A DNA stretch of 64,000 bases. It comes from Pectobacterium versatile. GTDB taxonomy: Bacteria > Pseudomonadota > Gammaproteobacteria > Enterobacterales > Enterobacteriaceae. A program made the translations under genes and the position numbers. Shown in pieces: positions 1 through 10,553 of the stretch (positions are counted from its first letter, which is position 1; each line of letters starts with the position of its first letter). The stretch lies in contig NZ_JAINZP010000012.1 in the NCBI RefSeq assembly GCF_020166435.1, forward strand, positions 1 to 64,000, given 5' to 3'. A model generated the notes under the pieces. It made no database searches and was not told the DNA's origin. It was given only the letters and a program-made list of their open reading frames with translations.

Positions 1-99
1 CCCCCAATGAACCCATAGAGAATATAGCAATAGTGATGATACCTCCTCGTGTGGGTGGATCACTATTGCCTGTTGGTGAGCCTAGGCCGCCGGGAAGAT

Positions 100-1206
100 A
101 TGATGAAGAAGACATTTAATCGTGAACGAGTTGATTCACTGGCAAACGCAGTATCACTAGGATGCAATAATACCGGACAGCCATGTTATGGGCATTTCGA
201 CAAAATAGCCTGGGTAACGGACTTGTTCGACAAGCGAGAGAATCGGATGCTGATAGACCGTTTATTTCAGCTTGAGTCTGGTGATAACTATCAGGTCAGG
301 GTTCGTACTGCTGGTAGGGATGAATGCGGCAGTCTTTATGGTCGGGTGGTTGAAATCCGGTTATCAAGTAAGCCTAAGCATCATCCTGTACTATTGATGA
401 TCTTCTTTGAGCCACTCAACAAAATACGCGGAGCAGTTCGTATGGAACTGAGCCCTCAGCATTATCAGTCCGAACAGATAACTGATTTATTCATCTGGCT
501 GGGGCGCAAAGGCTGTATTGGGAAATACTTATACCAAGGATTGAGGAATGCATGGATAACGACCGTCCATTACGCGTTGGATGTGATGGGTATGAAGCTA
601 CATGACTTTCTGATTGGTCTTGCCAAAGCCCATGATGGCGATTTCCATGATCTTCATGGTGAGCAGGAAGGTTTACGGCTAGGAACTACCACCGTCGTAG
701 CTTCGATATACGAAAAAATCAACGCTCCCGAGTTAAGCGTGGAAGAACGTCGGGCAACAGCTCAGTTAACACTGGATGAAAGCCAGCATGAGTGTTTTTT
801 ACGTCTGGAGCTGCGTCTGTCTCCAGGTAAGCAGAAACTGATGCTGAGTAACCTGTTGCAAATGGAGAACGTCCTATCACGATTGGCGTTCTACGATTGT
901 AAGCTAATGAAGGATCGCAAGCTGGACGCAAACTTTGCCCGGCGTCTGAAATACATGACTGTACCACGCGCTCGTAAAACGTTCCGTCCGGCCAGAGAGG
1001 TGAATGGCAGGGCTGTTAGTCCGACCAAAGCGGCAGCTAAAAAGCGGGTAGATAAGGTGATGAAAAGGTATCTGGTGGACTTGTTCGATGCAGACGCTAT
1101 CTGGCACAAACTTCCACTGGTTGTCGAGAAGCTGGGTATTCTGGGACAGCCGCAGTATTGGCAACTGGACATCCGTAAGAAATGGCTTAAATCTCGCGGG
1201 AAATAA
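100..1206 (+). CDS. Rep_trans-like rolling-circle replication initiation protein (putative)
   Basis: Probable replication initiator of the integrative element. The reading frame is open from position 49, but the ATG at 100 (followed at once by another at 103) has a GGGAAG ribosome site and gives 368 residues, so I prefer it. Counting from 100, family-like features are an aspartate-bearing strand HYALDVMG near 157-164, the segment LGTTTVVASIYEKIN near 194-208, which resembles the 'gs..S....iYdK' block of Rep_trans proteins, and FLRLELRLS near 233-241, which resembles their conserved 'RlElrl' strand. The C-terminal third is lysine/arginine-rich, suiting DNA binding. I see no HUH motif. The assignment rests on short motif resemblance, so function is probable, not proven. 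The next gene downstream is a polymerase-like protein, and an integrase closes the element. Confidence 0.5.
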   Translation: MMKKTFNRERVDSLANAVSLGCNNTGQPCYGHFDKIAWVTDLFDKRENRMLIDRLFQLESGDNYQVRVRTAGRDECGSLYGRVVEIRLSSKPKHHPVLLMIFFEPLNKIRGAVRMELSPQHYQSEQITDLFIWLGRKGCIGKYLYQGLRNAWITTVHYALDVMGMKLHDFLIGLAKAHDGDFHDLHGEQEGLRLGTTTVVASIYEKINAPELSVEERRATAQLTLDESQHECFLRLELRLSPGKQKLMLSNLLQMENVLSRLAFYDCKLMKDRKLDANFARRLKYMTVPRARKTFRPAREVNGRAVSPTKAAAKKRVDKVMKRYLVDLFDADAIWHKLPLVVEKLGILGQPQYWQLDIRKKWLKSRGK

Positions 1207-1534
1207 GCGCGGTGGCGTTACGGCAAGGATGCTGCATCCTCATCTGTGGGTTGTTCAACGGCAAACCTAAAATAGCGGATAGAAAATTAAATCTGGGAAA
1301 ATGAACGCCTTTTTACCATTCAAGGTTGCCAGATATTACTGCTACAAACCGGCTAACTACGGGTGTTATTGAGAGTCAGATTGGCACCTCGTACAATGGT
1401 AGGGGTAAACTGGCGATGGGTTTTGCAGATCCTGAAGATGGCAAGGATCGGCGGTTTTGAGTGAAATCGCGGTTTCAAAAGAGTGAAATTCAGGAAATAA
1501 CGTGCGTCTACCACCGCAATCTATTAGCCCCTGA

Positions 1535-1559
1535 CCGTTATTATACCGCCTAATAACGG
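1535..1559. repeat. Perfect inverted repeat, 9-bp arms, 7-bp spacer
   Basis: The arms CCGTTATTA (1535-1543) and TAATAACGG (1551-1559) are exact reverse complements around the spacer TACCGCC. No T-run follows, so a simple terminator is unlikely. A cruciform of this kind downstream of a rolling-circle-type rep gene could be a nick site or Rep-binding site, but nothing in the sequence proves it. Confidence 0.5.
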
Positions 1560-1824
1560 GTAACGTTGGGGGTGACCGCTACTCCCATTCTGGCTAAGCT
1601 GGGAATTAATCGCTCCTTCAGTCTACCAGGTATATTACTGTATCTATTAAGCTCTATAGGTACTGTATCTCTATATATTGTATATATGGTTTATCCATAC
1701 TATAGCCATTACCCAGTATCAGCTATCATGAGGCTCCAGCCTCCAATATTATCATCATCTAATAACCATCTGAACCTTGTTGGGTTCACGCGCGATTTTG
1801 CGTAATTCAGTTGTAAATAAATGG

Positions 1825-1847
1825 GGTCAGGGCATGGTGCTCTGGCC
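1825..1847 (+). promoter_or_regulatory. Leader stem-loop before the polymerase-like gene
   Basis: GGTCAGGGC and GCTCTGGCC can pair over all nine positions (two as G-U) around the 5-base loop ATGGT. The stem ends 18 bases before the start codon at 1866 and just before its AGGTGA ribosome site, so it could modulate translation of that gene. Confidence 0.35.
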
Positions 1848-1865
1848 TCTATATACAGGTGAATT

Positions 1866-3338
1866 ATGAAGCCATATATTACACATAACAATATCCTTGT
1901 GACAGATTCAACGCTGGATTATTTCAAGAAGATTGTTTTCAGCATTCCTTATAATGGTGTGCAGAGTTTACGGCGTCCTTTTTATCGTAATATTTCAGTA
2001 TTTCTCCAGCACGTTATTTGTGTCGCTACCTGTAGTCGTAAGAACAGGAAAAAAGCAAAAATTAAGGCGAATAAAAAATGGTCTTATTCTGTGCCAGTAC
2101 CGTTTGAGCTGGGACGGGAGAAACTTCCCGGTGTCTTTAAGAAAAGTGGGCCGACCCATGAGCGCGCAATGGAGGCGCTGGCAGGCGCGGGAATCATTAA
2201 ACTAACCGGTTATTCCAATGCTAAAAGTTCATGCCGGGAGTATGCTGTTTCTCAACGTTTTCTGCGTAAGTTGTTTGGCAACGACCGCGAGGCATACCTT
2301 AGCCGTGAGGATCGCTACCATTATCTGACTGACATTTTCACCAAGCGTAAAAGCTACTCATTAGATGAACTGATTGGGATTGCCATTGAACGCGGTCAGC
2401 ATGCTAAACATAAACAGTCGAAACGCGATATCCCAAACGTTGCCTTCAGGAAACGGGTAGTCGATGTATGGAACAACCTTGAACCGCTGGAAATCAATCT
2501 GGAGGCACTGCTGGATTACTATAACGAGAATCCCACCAAGAAGAACAAAATATTCATTTTCAACTTCCTGTCGCGACTGGCTGAAACAGGTGTGGATCTG
2601 GTGAAGGAGTCACCGTTGACGGTCTCTTACAGGCAATCTTATAAGACTGCGTACATTGGCGGGCGATCCTTTGAGATTGGCACTGGCTTTCAAAGTCTGC
2701 CTTCTGACATGAAGTGGGCGTGTCTGGCACGTGGTGTTAATTATGACATTAAGGGATGCCAGCTCGAGATACTACGACATGAGCTGTTGAGTATTGGCAT
2801 TTCGGCCGAGTCGCTGGAAGTTCTGGAAACTCAATATATCTGCCGGGTATTGCGTGTTGCGGAGGAACTGGTGAAGCAATTCAGGTTTTCCAGCGTATTC
2901 AACGTCGGGTTCGTCTCATTATCGCTTAAATCCAGCACCCGACGTCTGTTGAATCGTGAGTTAGGCAAGCTCGAGGCTGAACGAGTACTGAAGCAATGGA
3001 AACGCCTTCTGAAACCTTTACGAGATGATTTGGGGTTGCTGCTTGATCACTATGAGGGCACAGCTAAAACCAATCGTTACGGTAAATGCGTTACCAACGC
3101 GGTAGGGCAATCTTTCAACATTACCTGGAAAGATGTGGCAGCGCGTAAACGCTGGAAGTCAGATGTGATGCGCCGGAAGCTGCTATCGCATATGTTACAG
3201 GGGCTGGAAAGTCAGGCTGTATACGATTATGTTGCCAGCCATAAGGGTGTTTGCGCACTGGAGCATGATGGGTTTGTTTCATATGAGGAGGTAACGGACT
3301 GGTCACATCCATACCTGTTGATTGAGAAAAAACATTAG
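1866..3338 (+). CDS. Divergent family-A (Pol I-like) polymerase domain protein (putative)
   Basis: A 490-residue protein with an AGGTGA ribosome site 5 bases before ATG. The C-terminal 200 residues show the spaced landmarks of a family-A polymerase palm. Residues 293-303 (YDIKGCQLEIL, Asp294) match motif A, D-x4-E-L-R-I-L, with Gln at the usual steric-gate Glu position. FNVGF at 345-349 resembles the NFG of motif B. LQGLES at 444-449 resembles the Pol I QGTAAD helix. LEHDGF at 465-470 (His467-Asp468) matches the motif C HDE, with Gly replacing Glu. The N-terminal 200 residues are basic and unrecognised, and no 3'-5' exonuclease motifs are evident. A short polymerase beside a Rep protein suggests element replication. 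The reading is from motifs only; an unrelated fold is possible. Confidence 0.45.
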   Translation: MKPYITHNNILVTDSTLDYFKKIVFSIPYNGVQSLRRPFYRNISVFLQHVICVATCSRKNRKKAKIKANKKWSYSVPVPFELGREKLPGVFKKSGPTHERAMEALAGAGIIKLTGYSNAKSSCREYAVSQRFLRKLFGNDREAYLSREDRYHYLTDIFTKRKSYSLDELIGIAIERGQHAKHKQSKRDIPNVAFRKRVVDVWNNLEPLEINLEALLDYYNENPTKKNKIFIFNFLSRLAETGVDLVKESPLTVSYRQSYKTAYIGGRSFEIGTGFQSLPSDMKWACLARGVNYDIKGCQLEILRHELLSIGISAESLEVLETQYICRVLRVAEELVKQFRFSSVFNVGFVSLSLKSSTRRLLNRELGKLEAERVLKQWKRLLKPLRDDLGLLLDHYEGTAKTNRYGKCVTNAVGQSFNITWKDVAARKRWKSDVMRRKLLSHMLQGLESQAVYDYVASHKGVCALEHDGFVSYEEVTDWSHPYLLIEKKH

Positions 3339-3476
3339 GGAAGGTTATGTCATTTACTGTCCGGGGAGTTGGGCTGCTTTGAGCGATTAGCAGATGTTGC
3401 CTGTTATGGAAACCGTAAGCCCCTTCCCCAGAGAGGAACATGGTCTGGTAAAAGTGTAACGATATTACACACGGTT

Positions 3477-3481
3477 ATTTA
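3477..3481. repeat. Left 5-bp target-site duplication (ATTTA)
   Basis: ATTTA directly abuts the outer end of the left inverted repeat, and the same five bases abut the right one at 6417-6421. Five-base duplications are the signature of Tn3-family insertion. Confidence 0.85.
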
Positions 3482-3519
3482 GGGGGCCGCTTGGAAAACG
3501 GAAATTATCCCACGTTAAG
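3482..3519 (+). repeat. Left 38-bp Tn3-type terminal inverted repeat
   Basis: It runs from GGGGGCCG at the outer edge to CACGTTAAG at the inner edge. The stop codon of the left transposase remnant (TTA on this strand, 3515-3517) lies inside it. It differs from the right repeat at 6 of 38 positions. Confidence 0.88.
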
Positions 3520-3742
3520 ACTGCTTTTTGTACAATTTGGCATCGACTGTGCGTAATGGCCGATATTTCCCGGACCCCAGCTTAAGATTATTACGCCAGA
3601 CGTAATCTCCACTCAGATTGATATGTTCCCAACCCAGGGGAGAAAGATGAGATACCAGTTGCTCATTAATCGGGATGCCTTTTCGTTTCAATGACTCAAT
3701 GGCTCTTTCTATAGATGCATGGCTGACGATTCCAACGTAGAA
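3515..3742 (-). pseudogene. C-terminal remnant of a Tn3-family transposase (left end)
   Basis: Read on the minus strand, this encodes about 75 residues ending in the typical Tn3 TnpA tail: an [16 protein letters not shown] block, then VWRNN, then GKYRPLR. It has no start and is cut off by a stop at its inner side. It runs outward into the left inverted repeat, the normal position of a tnpA 3' end. The right end carries a related but diverged copy of the same tail, so the two ends are not a recent duplication of each other. Confidence 0.85.
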
Positions 3743-3893
3743 TCAACTCTAACTAGATAAAATCAACAGATTGATCACCCGTAACGGACCTGAACACGTT
3801 CATTCGGAGCCTGCCATTCCGGTGCTTTCGTTATTTTGTTGCATTTCGAGTGGGAAATAGGCCTTTCAACCACAGCCAGAGAGACACACCATT

Positions 3894-5375
3894 ATGTCAT
3901 CACCTACCATGGTTCAGGAATACCCGGAACTCAATACTCTTAACCCCCTGCTGAACAGTATTGTTGATAAAACCGTTGATAATGTTGCACGAAAACTGAT
4001 CGGCGGTTTTCGTAATAAACGAAATTCTCAACCGAATGCCAAGGCCCCCAACCTCAGTACAACGGTGGATGATACGCTTAACGCCACGTCGTCTGCGAGT
4101 GTGCTTGCCGTGGCGAATCGGGGTGTTCAGTGGAAGGAAATGATAAGCAAAAGTTTCACTCATGGCATTTCCTCTATTTCCACCATGAAGTTTGATGGTC
4201 AGTTCACGATCAAGAATGGTGTGCCGGAAGGCCTGAAAGATGTGCCGAATTCCCCGGGGGTCTATGTGGTTTATGACAGCGCCGGTGAGGTGCGGTATAT
4301 CGGCGATGCGAAGGATTTACAGAAACGGTGGCATGCCGGGCATCTGAATGAAAATAAAAACGCCGAAAAGAATGGCACAGAATACAAAATGGCGGCGGAG
4401 TTTGAAGAGGGCTGCACCGTCAAATTTATGGTCATGGATTCGGCAGAGACGGCAGCGGCGGTCGAGGCTAACATTTTAAAAAATGAGAAACCCCCGGTAA
4501 ATAAGAAAGAAGAGCTGTGCACAGAACAGGGTACGCGTTCTAATATCGAAGCAAAAAAAATGAAAGATGCGGCAAACGAGGCGGGAGGTCTGGCCTTTGG
4601 CGCAGGGAAAGAGGCATTAAAAAATGTCGGGTGGGATGTGTTGGAAACGCTCAGTACCACGATGATTAAAGCATTGAAGGATGAAGTTGTTGACCTGTTT
4701 ATCACCCAGAAAGCGCAGGTGAAAATCCGTCTAAAACGCTTTTTTGATAAAATATGGCAGGTTATCGTTAACCTGATAAAAGCCCCGTTAAATCTGCTTA
4801 GAGGTTTATTCGAGTTCGTGTTAAATGCACTGTCTCAGGCCATCGGGAAAATTTATCAGTTAGCAAAAAATATCTATGATCTGGGCATGGCGGCACTCTC
4901 GCTGATGAAGGGGAGCAAAACCATGACCAGGGAAGAAACCATCTATAAGGTCTCTGAGGTCATTATCACCAGCGGGACTCTGGTGTTCTGGGATGCGGTA
5001 GAACCGGTGATTGAATCCGGTATGGTGGCTCTTTTTGCTCCACTGGCTCCCTTTGCCCCTTATATTTCTGCCTCCCTGTGCGCGATGGGATTTGGGCTGA
5101 GCAGTTACCTTTTGGCCGATATCGTCCCTAAAGCCGTCAGCCTGATACTCTCAACGGAACCTGCCTATACTGCAAAAGGACGGGAGGCTTTCCAGCAGTT
5201 GATTGCTAACCATGAAACTAGTATGGGTATGGTGGCTGAACTGCAAAAATATGCAGGTAGCGCGGTGAATCTGATGAGTGAAACCCGGGAGCATACGGCA
5301 GAACTGAACAATGATGTCATCAGACTGACTCGCTTCTCTCTTGCCGAAGAGATTAAAAAGCTGGGAGCGCAGTAA
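3894..5375 (+). CDS. GIY-YIG nuclease-domain protein with hydrophobic C-terminal region (cassette gene A)
   Basis: A 493-residue protein; product family not recognised beyond its nuclease domain. Residues 1-115 are unassigned. A GIY-YIG domain spans about 118-205: GVY at 122-124, YIG at 135-137, Arg145-Trp146 with His150, the catalytic-type Glu191 (VEANILKNE) and Asn203, so all expected catalytic positions are present. Residues 225-340 are helical and amphipathic. About 372-420 is strongly hydrophobic with proline-rich FAPLAPFAP, suggesting membrane insertion or pore-like helices. About 425-493 is again helical. There is no N-terminal signal peptide, so the nuclease part should be cytoplasmic. 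The ribosome site is weak (AGAGAG). The next gene starts one base after the stop, so the two are co-translated. Phage defence, plasmid exclusion or toxin function are all possible; none is shown. Confidence 0.75.
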   Translation: MSSPTMVQEYPELNTLNPLLNSIVDKTVDNVARKLIGGFRNKRNSQPNAKAPNLSTTVDDTLNATSSASVLAVANRGVQWKEMISKSFTHGISSISTMKFDGQFTIKNGVPEGLKDVPNSPGVYVVYDSAGEVRYIGDAKDLQKRWHAGHLNENKNAEKNGTEYKMAAEFEEGCTVKFMVMDSAETAAAVEANILKNEKPPVNKKEELCTEQGTRSNIEAKKMKDAANEAGGLAFGAGKEALKNVGWDVLETLSTTMIKALKDEVVDLFITQKAQVKIRLKRFFDKIWQVIVNLIKAPLNLLRGLFEFVLNALSQAIGKIYQLAKNIYDLGMAALSLMKGSKTMTREETIYKVSEVIITSGTLVFWDAVEPVIESGMVALFAPLAPFAPYISASLCAMGFGLSSYLLADIVPKAVSLILSTEPAYTAKGREAFQQLIANHETSMGMVAELQKYAGSAVNLMSETREHTAELNNDVIRLTRFSLAEEIKKLGAQ

Positions 5376-5376
5376 T

Positions 5377-6234
5377 ATGACGGTTGTCACGATTGTTGAG
5401 AAGAACAAAGACTCCAGCATCGCCAGTTTCAAAAAAAATCTCCACGAAATAGGCAAAAAGCTGAAAGAGGAACGAGAGAGAAGTAAAGGGATACAAGAAG
5501 CGGCAGATGACTTCAATAATCGGGGTTTTTTGGAGCGTTGGGGTGGCAGTCTCACCTCGAGAAATGACACTGACTTAGCGACGATGATTGCAAGCTTGGG
5601 TGGCAGTCTGAATATCACCCAAGAAGTGATCGAGTGTTTATTACAAATCCAGTCAGAAAAAAATGTCGTGCTGAAAGAGTTTCATCTGGCGTTAATGAAT
5701 ACGATTCGAGACTTGAAACACAACGACACGATGCTGGATCTCAGCAGCCGTGAAAACTCACTGGCTATTCTTGAACATCTGAAATCCCAGGTGGAAGACA
5801 AACTGGAACAGGCACAGCGTGTCGAGGAACATGAAGAGGAGATTAACCGGTTACAGTCATTGAGCTGGCAGCAGGAGGAGATACTTCAACGTTTGCAGGC
5901 AAGTCAGGATGAGCACGCAACACAGCTTGCCCTCCTGAAGCAGGTTGTCCCAAAATTCGAGCGACAGCAGCAGGAGCAATGGCAACAGTCAGGGAAGCTG
6001 GCTCTGGCCCTTGAAGAGCAGGCGGATCAGTACCAGCAACAGTTGGCCTTACTGATGGACAAGCTGACCTTGCAGGAAAACGTCGCAACAGGCATGGCAG
6101 CGCGGGTCAGCGAATTAGAGAAGACGTCTCGATTAAAACGTGCAGGACTGCGCGATTACTTGCTGTTTGCGACTAGCGCTCTTGCCGCCGGACTGGTCGT
6201 TATCGAAGTGATGCGTTTTAACGGCGTTATTTAA
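5377..6234 (+). CDS. Coiled-coil protein with C-terminal membrane anchor (cassette gene B)
   Basis: A 285-residue protein with no recognised family. I use the ATG at 5377, which follows GGGAG inside the end of gene A and leaves a 1-base gap; an in-frame ATG upstream at 5341 lies within gene A. Residues 1-60 are charged and 61-130 mixed. About 131-255 is rich in Glu, Gln, Leu and Lys with heptad-like spacing, as in a long coiled coil. About 261-277 ([17 protein letters not shown]) is one hydrophobic segment near the end, followed by a few residues, as in tail-anchored proteins. The tight coupling to the GIY-YIG gene implies partnership, for example a scaffold, sensor or inhibitor at the membrane. 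The transposase remnant begins immediately after the stop. Confidence 0.7.
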
Positions 6235-6239
6235 CGGCG

Positions 6240-6377
6240 AGGTTTACCCATCTATCTCCGCTGGGATGGGAACACATCAACCTGAGTGGAGATTGCGTCT
6301 GGCGAACAAACCTCAAGCTGGGACAGGGAAAATACCGTTCGTTATGCTCAGTAGATAGCAGTCTGTACAAAAAATAG
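6240..6377 (+). pseudogene. C-terminal remnant of a Tn3-family transposase (right end)
   Basis: The forward frame ending at the TAG at 6375-6377 reads [16 protein letters not shown], then CVWRTN, then GKYRSL, ending LYKK. It matches the left remnant but differs at several residues, including Cys for Tyr after SGD. No start codon is present. It points outward into the right inverted repeat, mirroring the left end. Confidence 0.83.
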
Positions 6378-6378
6378 G

Positions 6379-6416
6379 CTTAACGTATGATGTTTTCCGT
6401 TTTCCAAGTGGACCCC
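6379..6416 (-). repeat. Right 38-bp Tn3-type terminal inverted repeat
   Basis: On the minus strand it reads from GGGGTCCA at the outer edge to TACGTTAAG at the inner edge. It is the inverted partner of 3482-3519, and its outer end touches the second ATTTA copy. Confidence 0.88.
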
Positions 6417-6421
6417 ATTTA
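6417..6421. repeat. Right 5-bp target-site duplication (ATTTA)
   Basis: Exact copy of the five bases at 3477-3481, directly outside the right inverted repeat. Confidence 0.85.
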
Positions 6422-6909
6422 GAACCATTTAAGCAGCGGTAAACAGCGGTCATTCGGTCTGAGTGTCTCAAAGTTTTTTGCAACATATGGACATTGCTAA
6501 TGAGCCAGCTGTTAGACATTCCTATCGAGCCTTGACAATCTATGTAACAGCAAAGTTGTAATGTCCGTTCTGGGCTAGGTTTAAGACGTCCGTCACGAGA
6601 TTTACCATCAAGAGATTCTGATAACGGCCCATGCAGCGGAGTTTTTTACTTTGGATGACGTCAACCGACTTAAAATCATTCAGGGTGTTGTCGACCGGCA
6701 CCTGACAACGCAGATGGCCGCGTAGCGCCAGGGTACCTCCTATCAGCTAAATCAAGCCAGGGCATGTGAAAATTTCGGTTGCTTGATAATGAGGTTAATC
6801 AACATCCGTTATTCATGCTTTATACATAATATAGGTTGAATTGTAGGTTATTTTAAATAATCACAAATTTAATATATTAATCAACGGTGAAACACCAACG
6901 CATCAGCGT
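6422..6909. other. 488-bp degenerate region between the cassette and the integrase
   Basis: There is no intact gene. A transposase fragment sits at 6636-6725, and the rest (about 6780-6900) is AT-rich with no clear function. The sequence before the cassette (3339-3476) and this stretch were contiguous before the Tn3-type insertion. Confidence 0.6.
6636..6725 (+). pseudogene. N-terminal fragment of an ISNCY/IS1202-type transposase
   Basis: The forward frame reads FFTLDDVNRLKIIQGVVDR, then HLTTQMAA and a stop at 6723. It resembles the N-terminal helix-turn-helix start of ISNCY-family transposases (E/D-x-x-R-x-x-V-L-Q-x-V, then a 'A-A-x-x-L' helix). Only about 30 codons remain, so this is a dead remnant. 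Identification is by motif memory only. Confidence 0.4.
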
Positions 6910-8091
6910 TTACGAAACATCAGTACTGCTTACCCATTCATCAAGTTTATCAGCCCATTCCTGCATCATCACTTTACGCTCATCAAGGTAAGTTGCATGG
7001 TTGTATGTGCGGCGAACATTATTGGTATCCGCATGGGCAAGCTGAGCCTCGATAGCATCAGGCCGATAGCCCATCTCGTTTAAACGTGTACTGCCTGTGG
7101 TTCGGGTCGCATGTGGGCTATACGTTCCGCTCCAGCCGAGGCTTTTCAGTAGCTGACGAAGAGAGTGTGATGTCATCGGGCCACGCGGATTATCTCGGCC
7201 CGGAAAGATGTGTTGTCGATGTCCGGTTAATCCCTGTAACGTTCTGAGCATGCTGACCGCTTGTGAGGGAAGGGGAATAACGTGTTCTCTGCGGGCTTTC
7301 ATGCGCGTTGCCGGAATGGTCCACAGTCCGTTATCAAGGTCGAATTCTGCCCATTCTGCTTCGGTTACTTCGGCTGGCCGCGCCAGCGTCCACCACATTA
7401 GCCACATGCAATAGTTAACCTGGTATGAGCCGCGACTGTTGTCAAAACAGCTTAATAACTTTCCGATTTGCTGAGGATTCAGTGCCTGTTTGTGCTGTGT
7501 CTTATTGGCGGGAAGGGCCTTGCGCACCGGCCATACAGGATCGCTATCAGCTCTGAGCGTCGCGACTGCCAACTCAAAAACCGATGAAATGGTGCGGCGG
7601 GCTTCAGCGGCAACGGTCGGAGCGCCGCGTTTAGCGATTTCCTGAAGAATTTTAAGAATGTGATGCGGGGTGATTTCCCTGATAGGAAGTTTGCCGATGG
7701 CGGGGAAAACTACACGCTCAAGCATATCAAGGCGGCGTGTTTTGGTGATGTCGGCCCAGTCTTTCATCTGCAACCACTCTTTGGCGATAAGCTCAAAGGT
7801 GTTGGAGGCATCGTTGACCTTGCGGATCTTATCTAACTGGCGAGCCTGTGTCGGGCTAACTCCATCTGCGACTTGTTTACGCGCTTGCTCACATTTCTCG
7901 CGAGCTTCGGCAAGTTTGACCGTCGGGTACTCACCCAACGCGAACATGCTGGATTTGCCGTTGAGTTTAAACCGATAGCGCCATGCCTTTTTGCCGTTGG
8001 GTTTCACTTCGAGGTAGAGACCGTTGAAGTCATTGAGTCGATAGAGTTTTTCTTTCGGCTTGGCAGTACGGCATTGCGTATCAGTGAGCAT
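6910..8091 (-). CDS. P4-type tyrosine recombinase/integrase
   Basis: A 393-residue integrase that catalyses site-specific insertion and excision of the element. The N-terminal arm-binding domain (DUF4102 type) covers about 1-85, with LYLEVKPNGKKAWRYRF. A core-binding domain covers about 95-180, and the catalytic domain runs from about 200 to 390. The catalytic set is complete: Arg238 (ARPAE), His327 and Arg330 (HATR), His353 (LAH) and the nucleophile Tyr363 (TYNHA). The tail matches the usual MMQEWADKLD ending. Its 5' side faces ychF, with repeated arm-type sites in between, so the attachment site should lie within 8176-8305. Full length and intact, so probably active. Confidence 0.95.
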   Translation of the reverse strand: MLTDTQCRTAKPKEKLYRLNDFNGLYLEVKPNGKKAWRYRFKLNGKSSMFALGEYPTVKLAEAREKCEQARKQVADGVSPTQARQLDKIRKVNDASNTFELIAKEWLQMKDWADITKTRRLDMLERVVFPAIGKLPIREITPHHILKILQEIAKRGAPTVAAEARRTISSVFELAVATLRADSDPVWPVRKALPANKTQHKQALNPQQIGKLLSCFDNSRGSYQVNYCMWLMWWTLARPAEVTEAEWAEFDLDNGLWTIPATRMKARREHVIPLPSQAVSMLRTLQGLTGHRQHIFPGRDNPRGPMTSHSLRQLLKSLGWSGTYSPHATRTTGSTRLNEMGYRPDAIEAQLAHADTNNVRRTYNHATYLDERKVMMQEWADKLDEWVSSTDVS

Positions 8092-8123
8092 AGCGAGTCC
8101 TTGTCTATTTCTTATACCGCTAT

Positions 8124-8175
8124 TGTACTCACCTAAAATGAAGATGGAAACTGATTGTACTCATGCCTGTACTCA
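8124..8175. promoter_or_regulatory. Three direct TGTACTCA repeats, probable integrase arm sites
   Basis: Identical octamers lie at 8124-8131, 8156-8163 and 8168-8175, immediately upstream of the integrase gene. Short direct repeats there are the usual arm-type binding sites of P4-like integrases, which also repress their own promoter. Binding is inferred from position and repetition. Confidence 0.55.
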
Positions 8176-8221
8176 TTTTTGACTGCGCTGTCATGAGATT
8201 AAGTGAGACGCCATGAAAAGA

Positions 8222-8247
8222 AAAATCCACGCAATTGCGTGGATTTT
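8222..8247 (-). terminator. ychF: Palindromic terminator after ychF
   Basis: A perfect 26-bp palindrome centred on 8234/8235 (inner part CCACGCAATTGCGTGG). On the minus strand it is followed by a T-rich run (TTTTTCTTTTC), as expected for a Rho-independent terminator 60 bases past the ychF stop. It also lies in the probable attachment region of the element. Confidence 0.75.
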
Positions 8248-8305
8248 ATGGGGTTTTCTGGTGTTCATGTGATGTTGTGATATCCCATGAGAAAACCGAA
8301 ATGAT

Positions 8306-9397
8306 TTAGACGTTGAACAGGAAGTTCATCACATCGCCATCTTTAACGATGTATTCCTTGCCTTCTGAACGCATTTTTCCGGCTTCTTTCGCGCCTTGTT
8401 CACCTTTGTAGGTGATGAAGTCTTCATAGGCGATAGTCTGGGCGCGGATGAAGCCTTTTTCGAAATCGGTGTGAATCTTACCAGCGGCCTGCGGGGCGGT
8501 GGCGCCGACAGGGATGGTCCAGGCACGAACTTCTTTCACGCCAGCGGTGAAGTAGGTTTGCAGGTCAAGCAGTTCATAGCCTGCACGGATTACGCGGTTC
8601 AGGCCCGGCTCTTCTAAACCTAATTCAGCCATGAATTCTTCACGGTCGGCGTCATCCAGTTCCGCAATATCTGATTCAACGGCGGCGCAGACGGCCACAA
8701 CGACAGAACCTTCAGCGGCTGCGATTTCGCGCACTTTATCGAGGTATGGATTGTTTTCGAAACCGTCTTCGTTAACGTTAGCGATGTACATCGTTGGTTT
8801 CAGCGTCAGGAAGCTCAGGTAGCGGATAGCTGCTTTGTCTTCATCGCTTAAATCCAGTGAGCGCAGCATGCCAGCGTTTTCCAACTGCGGTAAACATTTC
8901 TCCAGCGCGGCCAGTTCAGCTTTAGCATCTTTATCGCCGCCTTTCGCTCTCTTCTGCACGCGATGAATGGCGCGTTCGCAGGTGTCGAGGTCAGACAGTG
9001 CTAATTCAGTGTTGATGACTTCGATGTCATCAGCCGGATCAACTTTGTTGTTTACGTGGATAATGTTGTCGTTTTCGAAGCAGCGTACAACGTGGCCGAT
9101 GGCTTCCGTTTCACGAATGTTAGTCAGGAACTGGTTACCCAAACCTTCACCTTTGGACGCGCCTTTTACCAGACCAGCGATATCAACAAATTCCATGGTG
9201 GTAGGAAGGATACGCTGCGGCTTAACGATCTCAGCCAGCTTGTCCAGACGTGGATCGGGCATCGGTACTACGCCGGTGTTCGGCTCGATGGTACAAAACG
9301 GGAAGTTGGCCGCTTCGATGCCGGCTTTGGTCAACGCATTGAACAGAGTGGATTTACCGACGTTAGGCAGCCCAACGATACCGCATTTGAATCCCAT
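8306..9397 (-). CDS. ychF: Ribosome-binding ATPase YchF (Obg-like, OLA1 family)
   Basis: A 363-residue cytoplasmic P-loop protein of the Obg-like family that prefers ATP, binds ribosomes and is linked to stress and peroxide responses. The nucleotide loop GLPNVGKS is at residues 9-16. The [19 protein letters not shown] switch region near 70-90 and the C-terminal TGS domain (from about 278, ending in MNFLFNV) are all present at the family's usual length. It sits downstream of pth on the same strand, as in other enterobacteria. It is the first core gene to the right of the integrative element and looks undamaged. Confidence 0.98.
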
Positions 9398-9526
9398 GTT
9401 TATATCACCTTAAATAACTTATTAATCAGGCAATTACTATCTCTTGCCTGTCAGAATGGAAATATTTCGGCCGATTATACACGGAATGGCGATTTATCTC
9501 GATCTGCCATCCGCATTCTGACCAGA

Positions 9527-10114
9527 TTATGCCGCTTTGAAGGCATGCAAGCGGTTCATCGCTTTGATCATGTCTTCTTTCATCAGGATTTCTGTGCAGC
9601 GTACGGCTTCGTCAATGGCATCGTCGATCAGCGTCTGCTCGCTCGTTGGCGGTTTACCCAGCACAAAACCGGTCACTTTGCTTTTATCGCCCGGATGGCC
9701 GATACCGATGCGTAAACGATGGAAGTTCGGGTTGTTGCCCAATTTACTGATGATGTCTTTCAGACCGTTATGGCCGCCGTGTCCGCCGCCTAACTTAAGT
9801 TTGGCAATTCCCGGTAATAAATCCAGCTCATCGTGGGCAACCAGAATTTCATCAGGCTGGATGCGGTAGAAAGTGGCCATTGCCGCGACGGCTTTGCCGC
9901 TCAGGTTCATGAACGTGGTGGGAACCAGCAGGCGTACATCTTGCCCAGCCAGATTCAGGCGAGAGGTGTAACCAAAAAATTTGCTTTCTTCTTTCAGCGG
10001 CTGACGGTAAGACTCCGCCAGACGATCGACAAACCAAGCACCCGCATTATGACGAGTGGCGGCATATTCCGCGCCAGGATTAGCCAGGCCGACAATTAAT
10101 TTAATGCTGCTCAC
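9527..10114 (-). CDS. pth: Peptidyl-tRNA hydrolase
   Basis: A 195-residue enzyme that frees tRNA from peptidyl-tRNAs dropped off the ribosome. The N-terminal GLANPG block (9-14) with Asn12, the catalytic His22 (TRHNAG) and the AHDELDL segment are conserved. Length matches the family. It is about 130 bases upstream of ychF on the same strand, probably co-transcribed. Confidence 0.98.
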
Positions 10115-10553
10115 GGTATATTCCAGATTACGTGCTTAAACTTACGCAGGGTAGTGTGATAAACGAAAGCGCTAGTTTACACACCGCATGAGGTATAGCC
10201 AAATATACACGTCATACTTCAAGCTGCACGTGCGTTGGCTTTCCTCGCTCACCCCAGTCACTTACTTGAGTAAGCTCCTGGGGATTCACTGCGTTGCCGC
10301 CTTCCTGCAACTCGAATTATTTAGGGTATATCGGTGTTGGAATGTGAAAACATTGTTATTTGTTTAGTGGTGTGATTATTCGGATTTTTGTCTATTTGTT
10401 TGTTTAAACGTAAAAAAATATTAATCATTCCCCTTATCTGTGATCCCTCCCGCAATCATCTCAGTACATTATTGTCTATAATTACATCAACAATAAGACA
10501 GTAAACAGTAATGGCACTCCGATTCATCCACAAAATTAATCTGGAGGTGGCAG
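10115..10553. other. Intergenic region between pth and ychH, including a dispersed repeat
   Basis: A divergent promoter region. It contains the short-form repeat at 10205-10332. The remainder, about 10335-10540, is AT-rich and should hold the ychH promoter. I saw only half of a possible CRP site (TGTGATCC near 10439), so I do not call one. Confidence 0.5.
10205..10332 (+). repeat. Dispersed intergenic repeat, short form (copy 1)
   Basis: About 128 bases running from a GTCATACTTCAAG start, through a palindromic core (CCCCAG ... TTACTTGAGTAAG ... CTGGGG), to an AACTCGAATTATTTAGGGTAT end. A close copy lies at 60349-60476. Longer relatives lie at 10911-11109 (inverted) and 53063-53393, and half-copies near 20432-20460 and 43763-43795. 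All are intergenic. Confidence 0.85.

Follow-up and report, generated by a model that had tools for sequence, protein, structure and literature searches.

Closest described systems and the locus

SNIPE of Escherichia coli is described as a GIY-YIG nuclease that is bound to the membrane and cuts the DNA of phages as it is injected; it is built as one protein with an N-terminal transmembrane segment, a DUF4041 domain and a C-terminal GIY-YIG domain. SNIPE requires its catalytic glutamate, is toxic to the host when the membrane segment is lacking and is described as associating with tape measure proteins, and about one third of its homologues have no predicted transmembrane segment (PMC13190303). 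It was published in 2026 as a case of self/non-self discrimination by the place of DNA entry, not by sequence or modification (PMC13190303), and DUF4041 has been termed a central coiled-coil domain (PMC9519451). PD-T4-3 is reported as a single-gene GIY-YIG phage defence whose mechanism was called unknown (PMC12409345), while TIME and TIME-COMP are Tn3-derived elements (PMC4133298, PMC13367494). The present analysis concerns two adjoining genes, gene 1 and gene 2, carried by a Tn3-derived cassette in a stretch of 64,000 nucleotides from Pectobacterium versatile (contig NZ_JAINZP010000012.1, the whole stretch hereafter called the window). Gene 1 encodes a protein with a GIY-YIG domain and a hydrophobic C-terminal region, and gene 2 a helical protein with a predicted C-terminal anchor.

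The two genes form, with near certainty, a conserved module. As far as could be seen the family is undescribed, with PADLOC, Pfam, NCBIfam and PHROGs giving nothing beyond the GIY-YIG domain and weak matches. None of the papers listed in searches of open-access literature was on the pair, and no paper there contained any of four protein accessions of it. By analogy with SNIPE, the pair may be an inner-membrane two-component nuclease that cuts phage or other incoming DNA at entry, a reading to which a probability of roughly 0.4 was given.

Gene 1 encodes a predicted GIY-YIG nuclease

The GIY-YIG nuclease superfamily is recognised by its domain together with the GIY, YIG, Arg, Glu and Asn positions. 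Pfam model PF01541 matched residues 121-203 of gene 1 with 33.5 bits against a cut-off of 22.6 (expected value (E) 5.4e-8) and was above cut-off in gene 1 of the window and of loci L037, L038 and L040. The five motif residues stood where a preliminary description of this DNA, made from the letters without database searches, had placed them (Table 1), and its view that the nuclease domain looked complete was borne out. With both the domain match and the five motif positions present, gene 1 is by sequence a member of the superfamily. UvrC N domains were the nearest families and the nearest solved structures to the nuclease part; the UvrC and Cho models of NCBIfam gave 12.5-42.3 bits against cut-offs of at least 285, with the N domain alone matched. 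In the fold comparison of the gene 1 model, two GIY-YIG structures ranked top at E 0.07 and none reached E ≤0.001.

The helical and hydrophobic C-terminal region proposed in the preliminary description was also recovered. Kyte-Doolittle analysis showed that the C-terminal half was hydrophobic, with segments at residues 290-308 and across 355-419, and the same half was helical in the predicted structure, a low-confidence model with a mean predicted local distance difference test score (pLDDT) of 43.8. No solved-structure profile matched this part below E 0.01.

Gene 2 encodes a helical partner

The frame of gene 2 opens one base after the stop of gene 1. The predicted structure of its product was almost entirely helical (mean pLDDT 72.6), and hydropathy gave the single C-terminal membrane segment that had been expected of it. 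Membrane is used here for both proteins on hydropathy alone, and coiled coil is used for gene 2, as in the preliminary description, on the long predicted helices and weak matches to coiled-coil families. No Pfam family was above cut-off for gene 2 of the window, L037, L038 and L040, no NCBIfam family was above cut-off for gene 2 of the window, and matches to PHROGs were all weak, with a best E of 0.007. The gene 2 model produced generic long-helix fold matches with none at ≤0.001, and no solved-structure profile matched below E 0.01.

Conservation and selection

GVY, Y-I/V-G, Arg, Glu and Asn were kept in all 12 intact gene 1 copies compared (window, L024-L026, L028, L030, L031, L037, L038, L040, L046 and L048), so the conservation of nuclease residues on which the preliminary description had made its proposal depend was found. 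A further 19 near-identical Klebsiella records and one broken copy, from Enterobacter sp. EA-1, were left out of this check. An alignment of nine gene 1 sequences, 48-98% identical to that of the window, showed many invariant positions outside the nuclease domain, including W366, D367, P371 and E374, and the hydrophobic tract was present in 7/7 diverse members. For gene 2 the identity dropped to 27%, with the C-terminal hydrophobic segment still in 7/7.

The ratio of non-synonymous to synonymous substitution rates (dN/dS) of gene 1 was 0.08-0.26 in eight of nine comparisons, no dS being obtained in the ninth, and 0.08-0.11 at dS above 0.2, values that mark strong purifying selection on gene 1. 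Gene 2 gave 0.23-0.48 in the six of nine comparisons with dS >0.04, two gave no dS, and the value of 0.82 for the window and L030 means little at a dS of only 0.011. Low values for gene 1 with higher values for gene 2 are as expected of a conserved enzyme and a faster-changing partner. Sequence data support the nuclease domain with its catalytic residues, the pairing, the adjoining frames, the C-terminal hydrophobic segment, the mobility of the pair and the selection on it.

Occurrence of the pair

Gene 1 was found in 21 of 72,556 plasmid records, all from Klebsiella, and gene 2 in the identical 21, which were found by DNA too; 18 of these records were typed conjugative. No gene 1 was found in 50,697 phage records, and the pair was present on one IMG/VR contig, prophage-like and identical in five scans, where by eye it follows repressor-like and replication-like genes. 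Among the Klebsiella plasmid regions viewed, five of eight had a plasmid replication gene about 1.3-1.4 kilobases (kb) upstream of gene 1, as did the E. coli plasmid described below. This setting bears on plasmid or element exclusion, in which the module would cleave the DNA of competing plasmids at the membrane as it comes in and so serve its carrier and not the host. That explanation is unlikely: the conjugative types and the upstream replication genes agree with it, but the pair also sits on chromosomes and on the prophage-like contig, and carriage by conjugative plasmids is common for any cargo.

A family sample gave gene 1 proper in 4 of 392 genomes (G000, G184, G122 and G028), and among 246 genomes these were also the four with gene 2. 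In G028 (Enterobacter sp. EA-1, 49% complete) both genes were in pieces, and the frames were broken across the whole region, which suggests sequencing error. The other 259 genomes matched by gene 1 (263 less 4) were taken as carrying UvrC-type genes because, among the matches listed, alignments lay within about residues 68-200 (mostly 112-172) and frames were mostly about 600 amino acids (aa). The scan of genome contigs confirmed five loci out of 68 candidate stretches: Siccibacter (L031), Pantoea, Kosakonia, EA-1 (L032) and Aquabacterium. Samples drawn around the Aquabacterium genome (G762) added G795 at family level (2/299 including G762) and G1195 at order level (2/349 including G762); these three loci are taken to be Burkholderiales from the name Aquabacterium. 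The class sample (369) gave the own genome and two weak short matches to the C-terminal part (E 3.7e-4 and 7.0e-4, 31-32% identical), and the phylum sample the own genome only.

At the 10 loci measured, gene 2 followed gene 1 on the same strand, with a gap of 1 base pair (bp) in seven, 26-28 bp in two and a 4-bp overlap in one, the gene 2 start codon having been chosen by the analyst in L040 and L046. Homologues were found paired, in the same 21 plasmid records and the same four genomes (one in pieces), which was one of the points on which the preliminary description had made its proposal depend. The pair is more than a chance neighbourhood because it recurs together in other genera and in another order and because gene 1 has a dN/dS of about 0.1 where dS exceeds 0.2.

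In E. coli, one record covered 67% of the query and the next rows 8%, in the Tn3 arm only. This record is plasmid p21AR0133C (L026), in which gene 1 is intact and gene 2 is annotated at 110 aa, apparently cut by an insertion; it was the only case seen of an intact gene 1 without an intact partner. The short gene 2 ends beside a weak Tn3-type repeat (26/38), a chemotaxis-protein gene and a Tn5403-type transposase gene (L026 9656-14818).

Two adjoining genes, one of them for a nuclease, on mobile elements and in the same records and genomes of the samples might also be expected of a toxin-antitoxin or addiction module, with gene 1 as toxic nuclease, gene 2 as its inhibitor and the element stabilised. 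We consider this improbable. In p21AR0133C gene 1 is intact beside a 110-aa gene 2, which speaks against a strict need for the full gene 2, although its first part could still neutralise. To our knowledge, an antitoxin of 285 aa with a conserved membrane anchor would be unusual.

The Tn3-derived cassette

The cassette is a Tn3-derived composite element: two 38-bp inverted repeats, identical at 32 of 38 positions, each have a 5-bp ATTTA outside them, and the two arms that end in these repeats are 168 bp each, inverted, and read as the C-terminus of a Tn3-family transposase (Table 1). Gene 1 and gene 2 were the only evident genes inside. The earlier statement that the pair is the sole cargo of a mobile cassette thus held for the window and its near relatives and did not extend to the family, since the pair also occurs without the cassette.

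G184 (locus L030), of a second genus, carried the same insertion with identical flanking bases. Between the window and L030, dS was 0.033 for gene 1 and 0.011 for gene 2, against 1.48 for ychF and 2.01 for pth, which indicates that the segment has recently passed between genera. The Klebsiella copies matched positions 3712-6243 of the window only, arms excluded, so the travelling unit is smaller than the cassette. With copies on plasmids, a prophage-like contig and chromosomes and this recent intergenus transfer, the sequences indicate that the pair moves horizontally. No Tn3-type repeat at up to 14 mismatches was present in L032, L037, L038, L046 and L048 (L040 was outside the scan); occurring elsewhere without repeats or arms, the pair is not bound to the cassette.

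Homing endonucleases are among the proteins with GIY-YIG domains, and the pair, as the only cargo that the two tnpA remnants and their inverted repeats enclose, could be an accessory of the cassette itself, acting in transposition or homing. This is very improbable, given that the Klebsiella copies are without arms and five other loci without repeats.

The search for an empty site gave no E. coli record covering 80% of the joined flanks, E. coli genomes alone having been searched. No sigma-70 consensus site was found from position 3400 to gene 1 on the gene 1 strand, and no Rfam family at gathering score in window positions 1-10000. In L030 (2671-3856 and 9638-10990) the integrase copy at the matching ychF site is split into two frames and a second integrase lies nearby; together with the integrase of the window, these make the ychF side look like an integration hotspot.

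Table 1. Features of the gene pair, its cassette and the adjoining island in the window.
Feature	Position	Strand	Description
Gene 1	3894..5375	+	493 aa; ATG at 3894 to stop ending at 5375; conserved N-terminal region (residues 1-110), GIY-YIG nuclease, hydrophobic C-terminal region
GIY-YIG domain of gene 1	4254..4502	+	Residues 121-203; GVY122-124, YIG135-137, R145, E191, N203
Stretch of gene 1 with hydrophobic segments (residues 290-308, 355-419)	4761..5150	+	Invariant W366, D367, P371, E374
Gene 2	5377..6234	+	285 aa, helical, probably coiled-coil, C-terminal anchor predicted
Best-conserved part of gene 2	5563..5685	+	Residues 63-103: ND.DLA.M...LGGSL..TQ ... FH
C-terminal hydrophobic segment of gene 2	6157..6213	+	Residues 261-279, its one such segment by hydropathy; in 7/7 diverse members
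Left 38-bp Tn3-type inverted repeat	3482..3519	+	Repeat scan
Right 38-bp Tn3-type inverted repeat	6379..6416	-	Repeat scan
Target-site duplication ATTTA, left	3477..3481	.	Flanking bases
Target-site duplication ATTTA, right	6417..6421	.	Flanking bases
Left arm, tnpA 3' end (Tn3 family), outward-reading	3482..3649	-	Match to annotated transposase genes of the Tn3 family as well
Right arm, 3' end of second tnpA, outward-reading	6249..6416	+	78% alike to left arm
Region upstream of gene 1, common to Klebsiella plasmids; presumed promoter region	3712..3893	+	
Tyrosine integrase of surrounding island, beside ychF	6910..8091	-	Context, outside the module

Genomic neighbourhoods

A WYL regulator adjoined the pair in both Burkholderiales loci with visible flanks. 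In G795 a gene for a WYL-WCX protein lies upstream and divergent (gene 1 start at L046 9540; the frame used begins at 10184, inside a longer open frame), and in G1195 a WYL gene begins 7 bases after gene 2 on the same strand; the two WYL proteins were 26% identical over the aligned part. The sequence of L040 breaks off 683 bp upstream, close to the position of the WYL gene in G795, and L040 was kept outside the WYL count. WYL regulators have been reported next to phage-defence systems (PMC9122601, PMC9122588) and also control DNA-damage responses (PMC10693628, PMC11804915), which makes the WYL neighbourhood a hint.

The second of these roles, with UvrC N domains as the nearest solved structures, would suit a function in DNA repair or stress, in which a membrane-linked UvrC/Cho-like nuclease acts after damage and is switched on by damage-sensing WYL regulators. 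We regard such a function as quite improbable, because the pair is rare, moved recently and is carried by a cassette, has nothing of UvrC beyond the N domain and includes a faster-changing partner.

Beside the Siccibacter copy stand a RES-Xre toxin-antitoxin pair and, immediately upstream of gene 1 and gene 2 (L031 10546-13818), the gene for a 933-aa KGGVGR/MinD-like and Sll1717-type ATPase with a 153-aa partner, which match the PADLOC candidates PDC-M28B and PDC-M28C. A DUF262 pair was present within about 8 kb in four of the eight Klebsiella plasmid regions viewed. L032 (EA-1) and L038 (Kosakonia) share a common neighbourhood, in which a gene that by eye resembles class A beta-lactamases lies some 3-4 kb off.

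Upstream of the cassette in the window, positions 1866-3338 (+) encode a 490-aa protein with no Pfam family and a match to PHROG 30690 (unknown function) at E 8e-33, in which by eye we presume family-A-polymerase-like motifs (YDIKGCQLEILRHEL; LEHDGF). Two Proteus records contain relatives of half its length and one E. coli record a short relative, and no solved relative was found below E 0.3. No family of Pfam, PADLOC, NCBIfam or PHROGs matched the 385-aa protein of positions 49-1206 (+) at E ≤0.1; by eye it resembles replication initiators of small rolling-circle elements.

Tape measure likeness of the gene 1 C-terminal region

Homology of the C-terminal region of gene 1 to phage tape measure proteins was considered and rejected, since a reversed-sequence control matched as well. 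Gene 1 of L048, L040 and L038 (3/3) matched PHROG tape measure families at E ≤0.01, and the C-terminal parts of all eight members of a comparison set (A9) did so at E ≤1, with a best E of 7.4e-5; full-length gene 1 of the window matched no tape measure family at E ≤0.1. In tblastn searches against phages, annotated tape measure genes were found in 35 of the best 40 rows (63 records matched, best E 0.1) and, in another search, in 5 of 7 (best E 2). Reversed C-terminal parts matched tape measure families in three of six cases, one at 8.2e-6, which was better than the best forward match; this reversed control belongs to the profile searches, the tblastn searches being without one. The other controls gave no tape measure match (shuffled sequences 0/2, major facilitator superfamily transporter 0/1, gene 2 0/1). 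As reversed sequences match too, what is shared is a helical pattern and composition, and homology is not claimed.

Proposed function

A membrane-associated nuclease complex is likely, and immunity of some kind, against phage or plasmid, is somewhat favoured. We infer membrane location, complex formation, DNA as the substrate and a role in defence from the features given above. In the preferred reading of DNA cutting at entry, gene 1 would be a DNA endonuclease of GIY-YIG (UvrC N-domain-like) fold with its hydrophobic C-terminal tract on or in the inner membrane, and gene 2 a cytoplasmic coiled-coil protein tail-anchored in the same membrane. Gene 2 would bind gene 1, tether it to the membrane at a distance from the chromosome, and bear a recognition part that meets phage or conjugation machinery. 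As with SNIPE, DNA would be cut while it enters through the inner membrane. That gene 2 changes faster agrees with a role as sensor or adapter touching a changing partner.

Membrane defence, as the preliminary description had proposed, is favoured by the mobility of the pair, by the WYL neighbours in Burkholderiales and by the SNIPE analogy. The survey for recurrence that it suggested showed the pair in other genomes, a prophage-like contig included. Several observations weigh against cutting at entry. By eye, the Pantoea and Kosakonia copies lie among metabolic genes, outside defence islands. No WYL gene was annotated in the plasmid regions viewed, the enterobacterial chromosomal flanks being without a systematic WYL scan. 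The gene 1 model is poor, a weak basis for topology and interaction, and the conserved charged residues D367 and E374 lie inside the hydrophobic tract, which is unusual for plain membrane helices. The family is also rare, with the genome of the window as the one match among 299 phylum genomes, whereas SNIPE is reported as widespread (PMC13190303).

A wider joint proposal is doubtful: the pair would be an undescribed two-component immune family of enterobacteria and Burkholderiales, with a membrane-embedded GIY-YIG nuclease, a faster-evolving tail-anchored sensor and WYL control in Burkholderiales, whose hydrophobic tract may imitate the helical pattern of tape measure proteins and settle in the phage DNA channel. 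The imitation is its boldest part, and the sequence support for it was lost to the reversed-sequence control. If cutting at entry is true, specificity determinants would be easy to swap and test, the presumed sensor having a gene of its own.

Comparison with known systems

Comparison with catalogued defence systems gave no PADLOC match for gene 1 of the window (E ≤0.1) or for the seven members of another set (A6; E ≤1), the presence of a PD-T4-3 model in PADLOC being unconfirmed. Weak PADLOC matches were seen for gene 2 of the window (E 0.037 and 0.056), gene 1 of L048 (homing endonuclease 8.7e-4, DpdD 0.008), gene 2 of L048 (DruC 4e-4 and others) and gene 2 of L046 (PDC-S26 2.4e-4). With gene 2 also without a Pfam family above cut-off, the preliminary view that the pair belongs to no described system stood. 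PD-T4-3 is similar in having a GIY-YIG domain in a defence setting, and differs in being a single gene. The pair resembles UvrC and Cho in the domain and motif order of the nuclease part, but a hydrophobic tract and a partner gene replace the other UvrC domains. The cassette, like TIME and TIME-COMP, is non-autonomous cargo between two Tn3-type ends; unlike theirs, its two ends are 3' remnants of tnpA with a mutual difference of 22%, and any mobility in trans is putative.

As in SNIPE, a GIY-YIG nuclease is combined in the pair with membrane and coiled-coil parts, and action at DNA entry appears likely by analogy. DUF4041 (PF13250) was unmatched in gene 1 and gene 2 of the window (E ≤0.1) and of L037, L038 and L040 (E ≤1; for L038 gene 2, among the best 25 matches). 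A DUF4041 search in 38 genomes gave no match, controls included, and SNIPE was compared by its description. Unlike SNIPE, the pair is without DUF4041, its GIY-YIG domain is central and precedes the hydrophobic tract, and a second protein bears the long helices and the clear anchor. Having no DUF4041, the pair is not a SNIPE; since about one third of SNIPE homologues have no predicted transmembrane segment, the position of the membrane segment alone is not a strict criterion. A membrane-bound GIY-YIG nuclease is as a kind already known through SNIPE, and if the pair does cut DNA at entry, location-based DNA immunity would have arisen more than once, here by an unrelated two-gene design.

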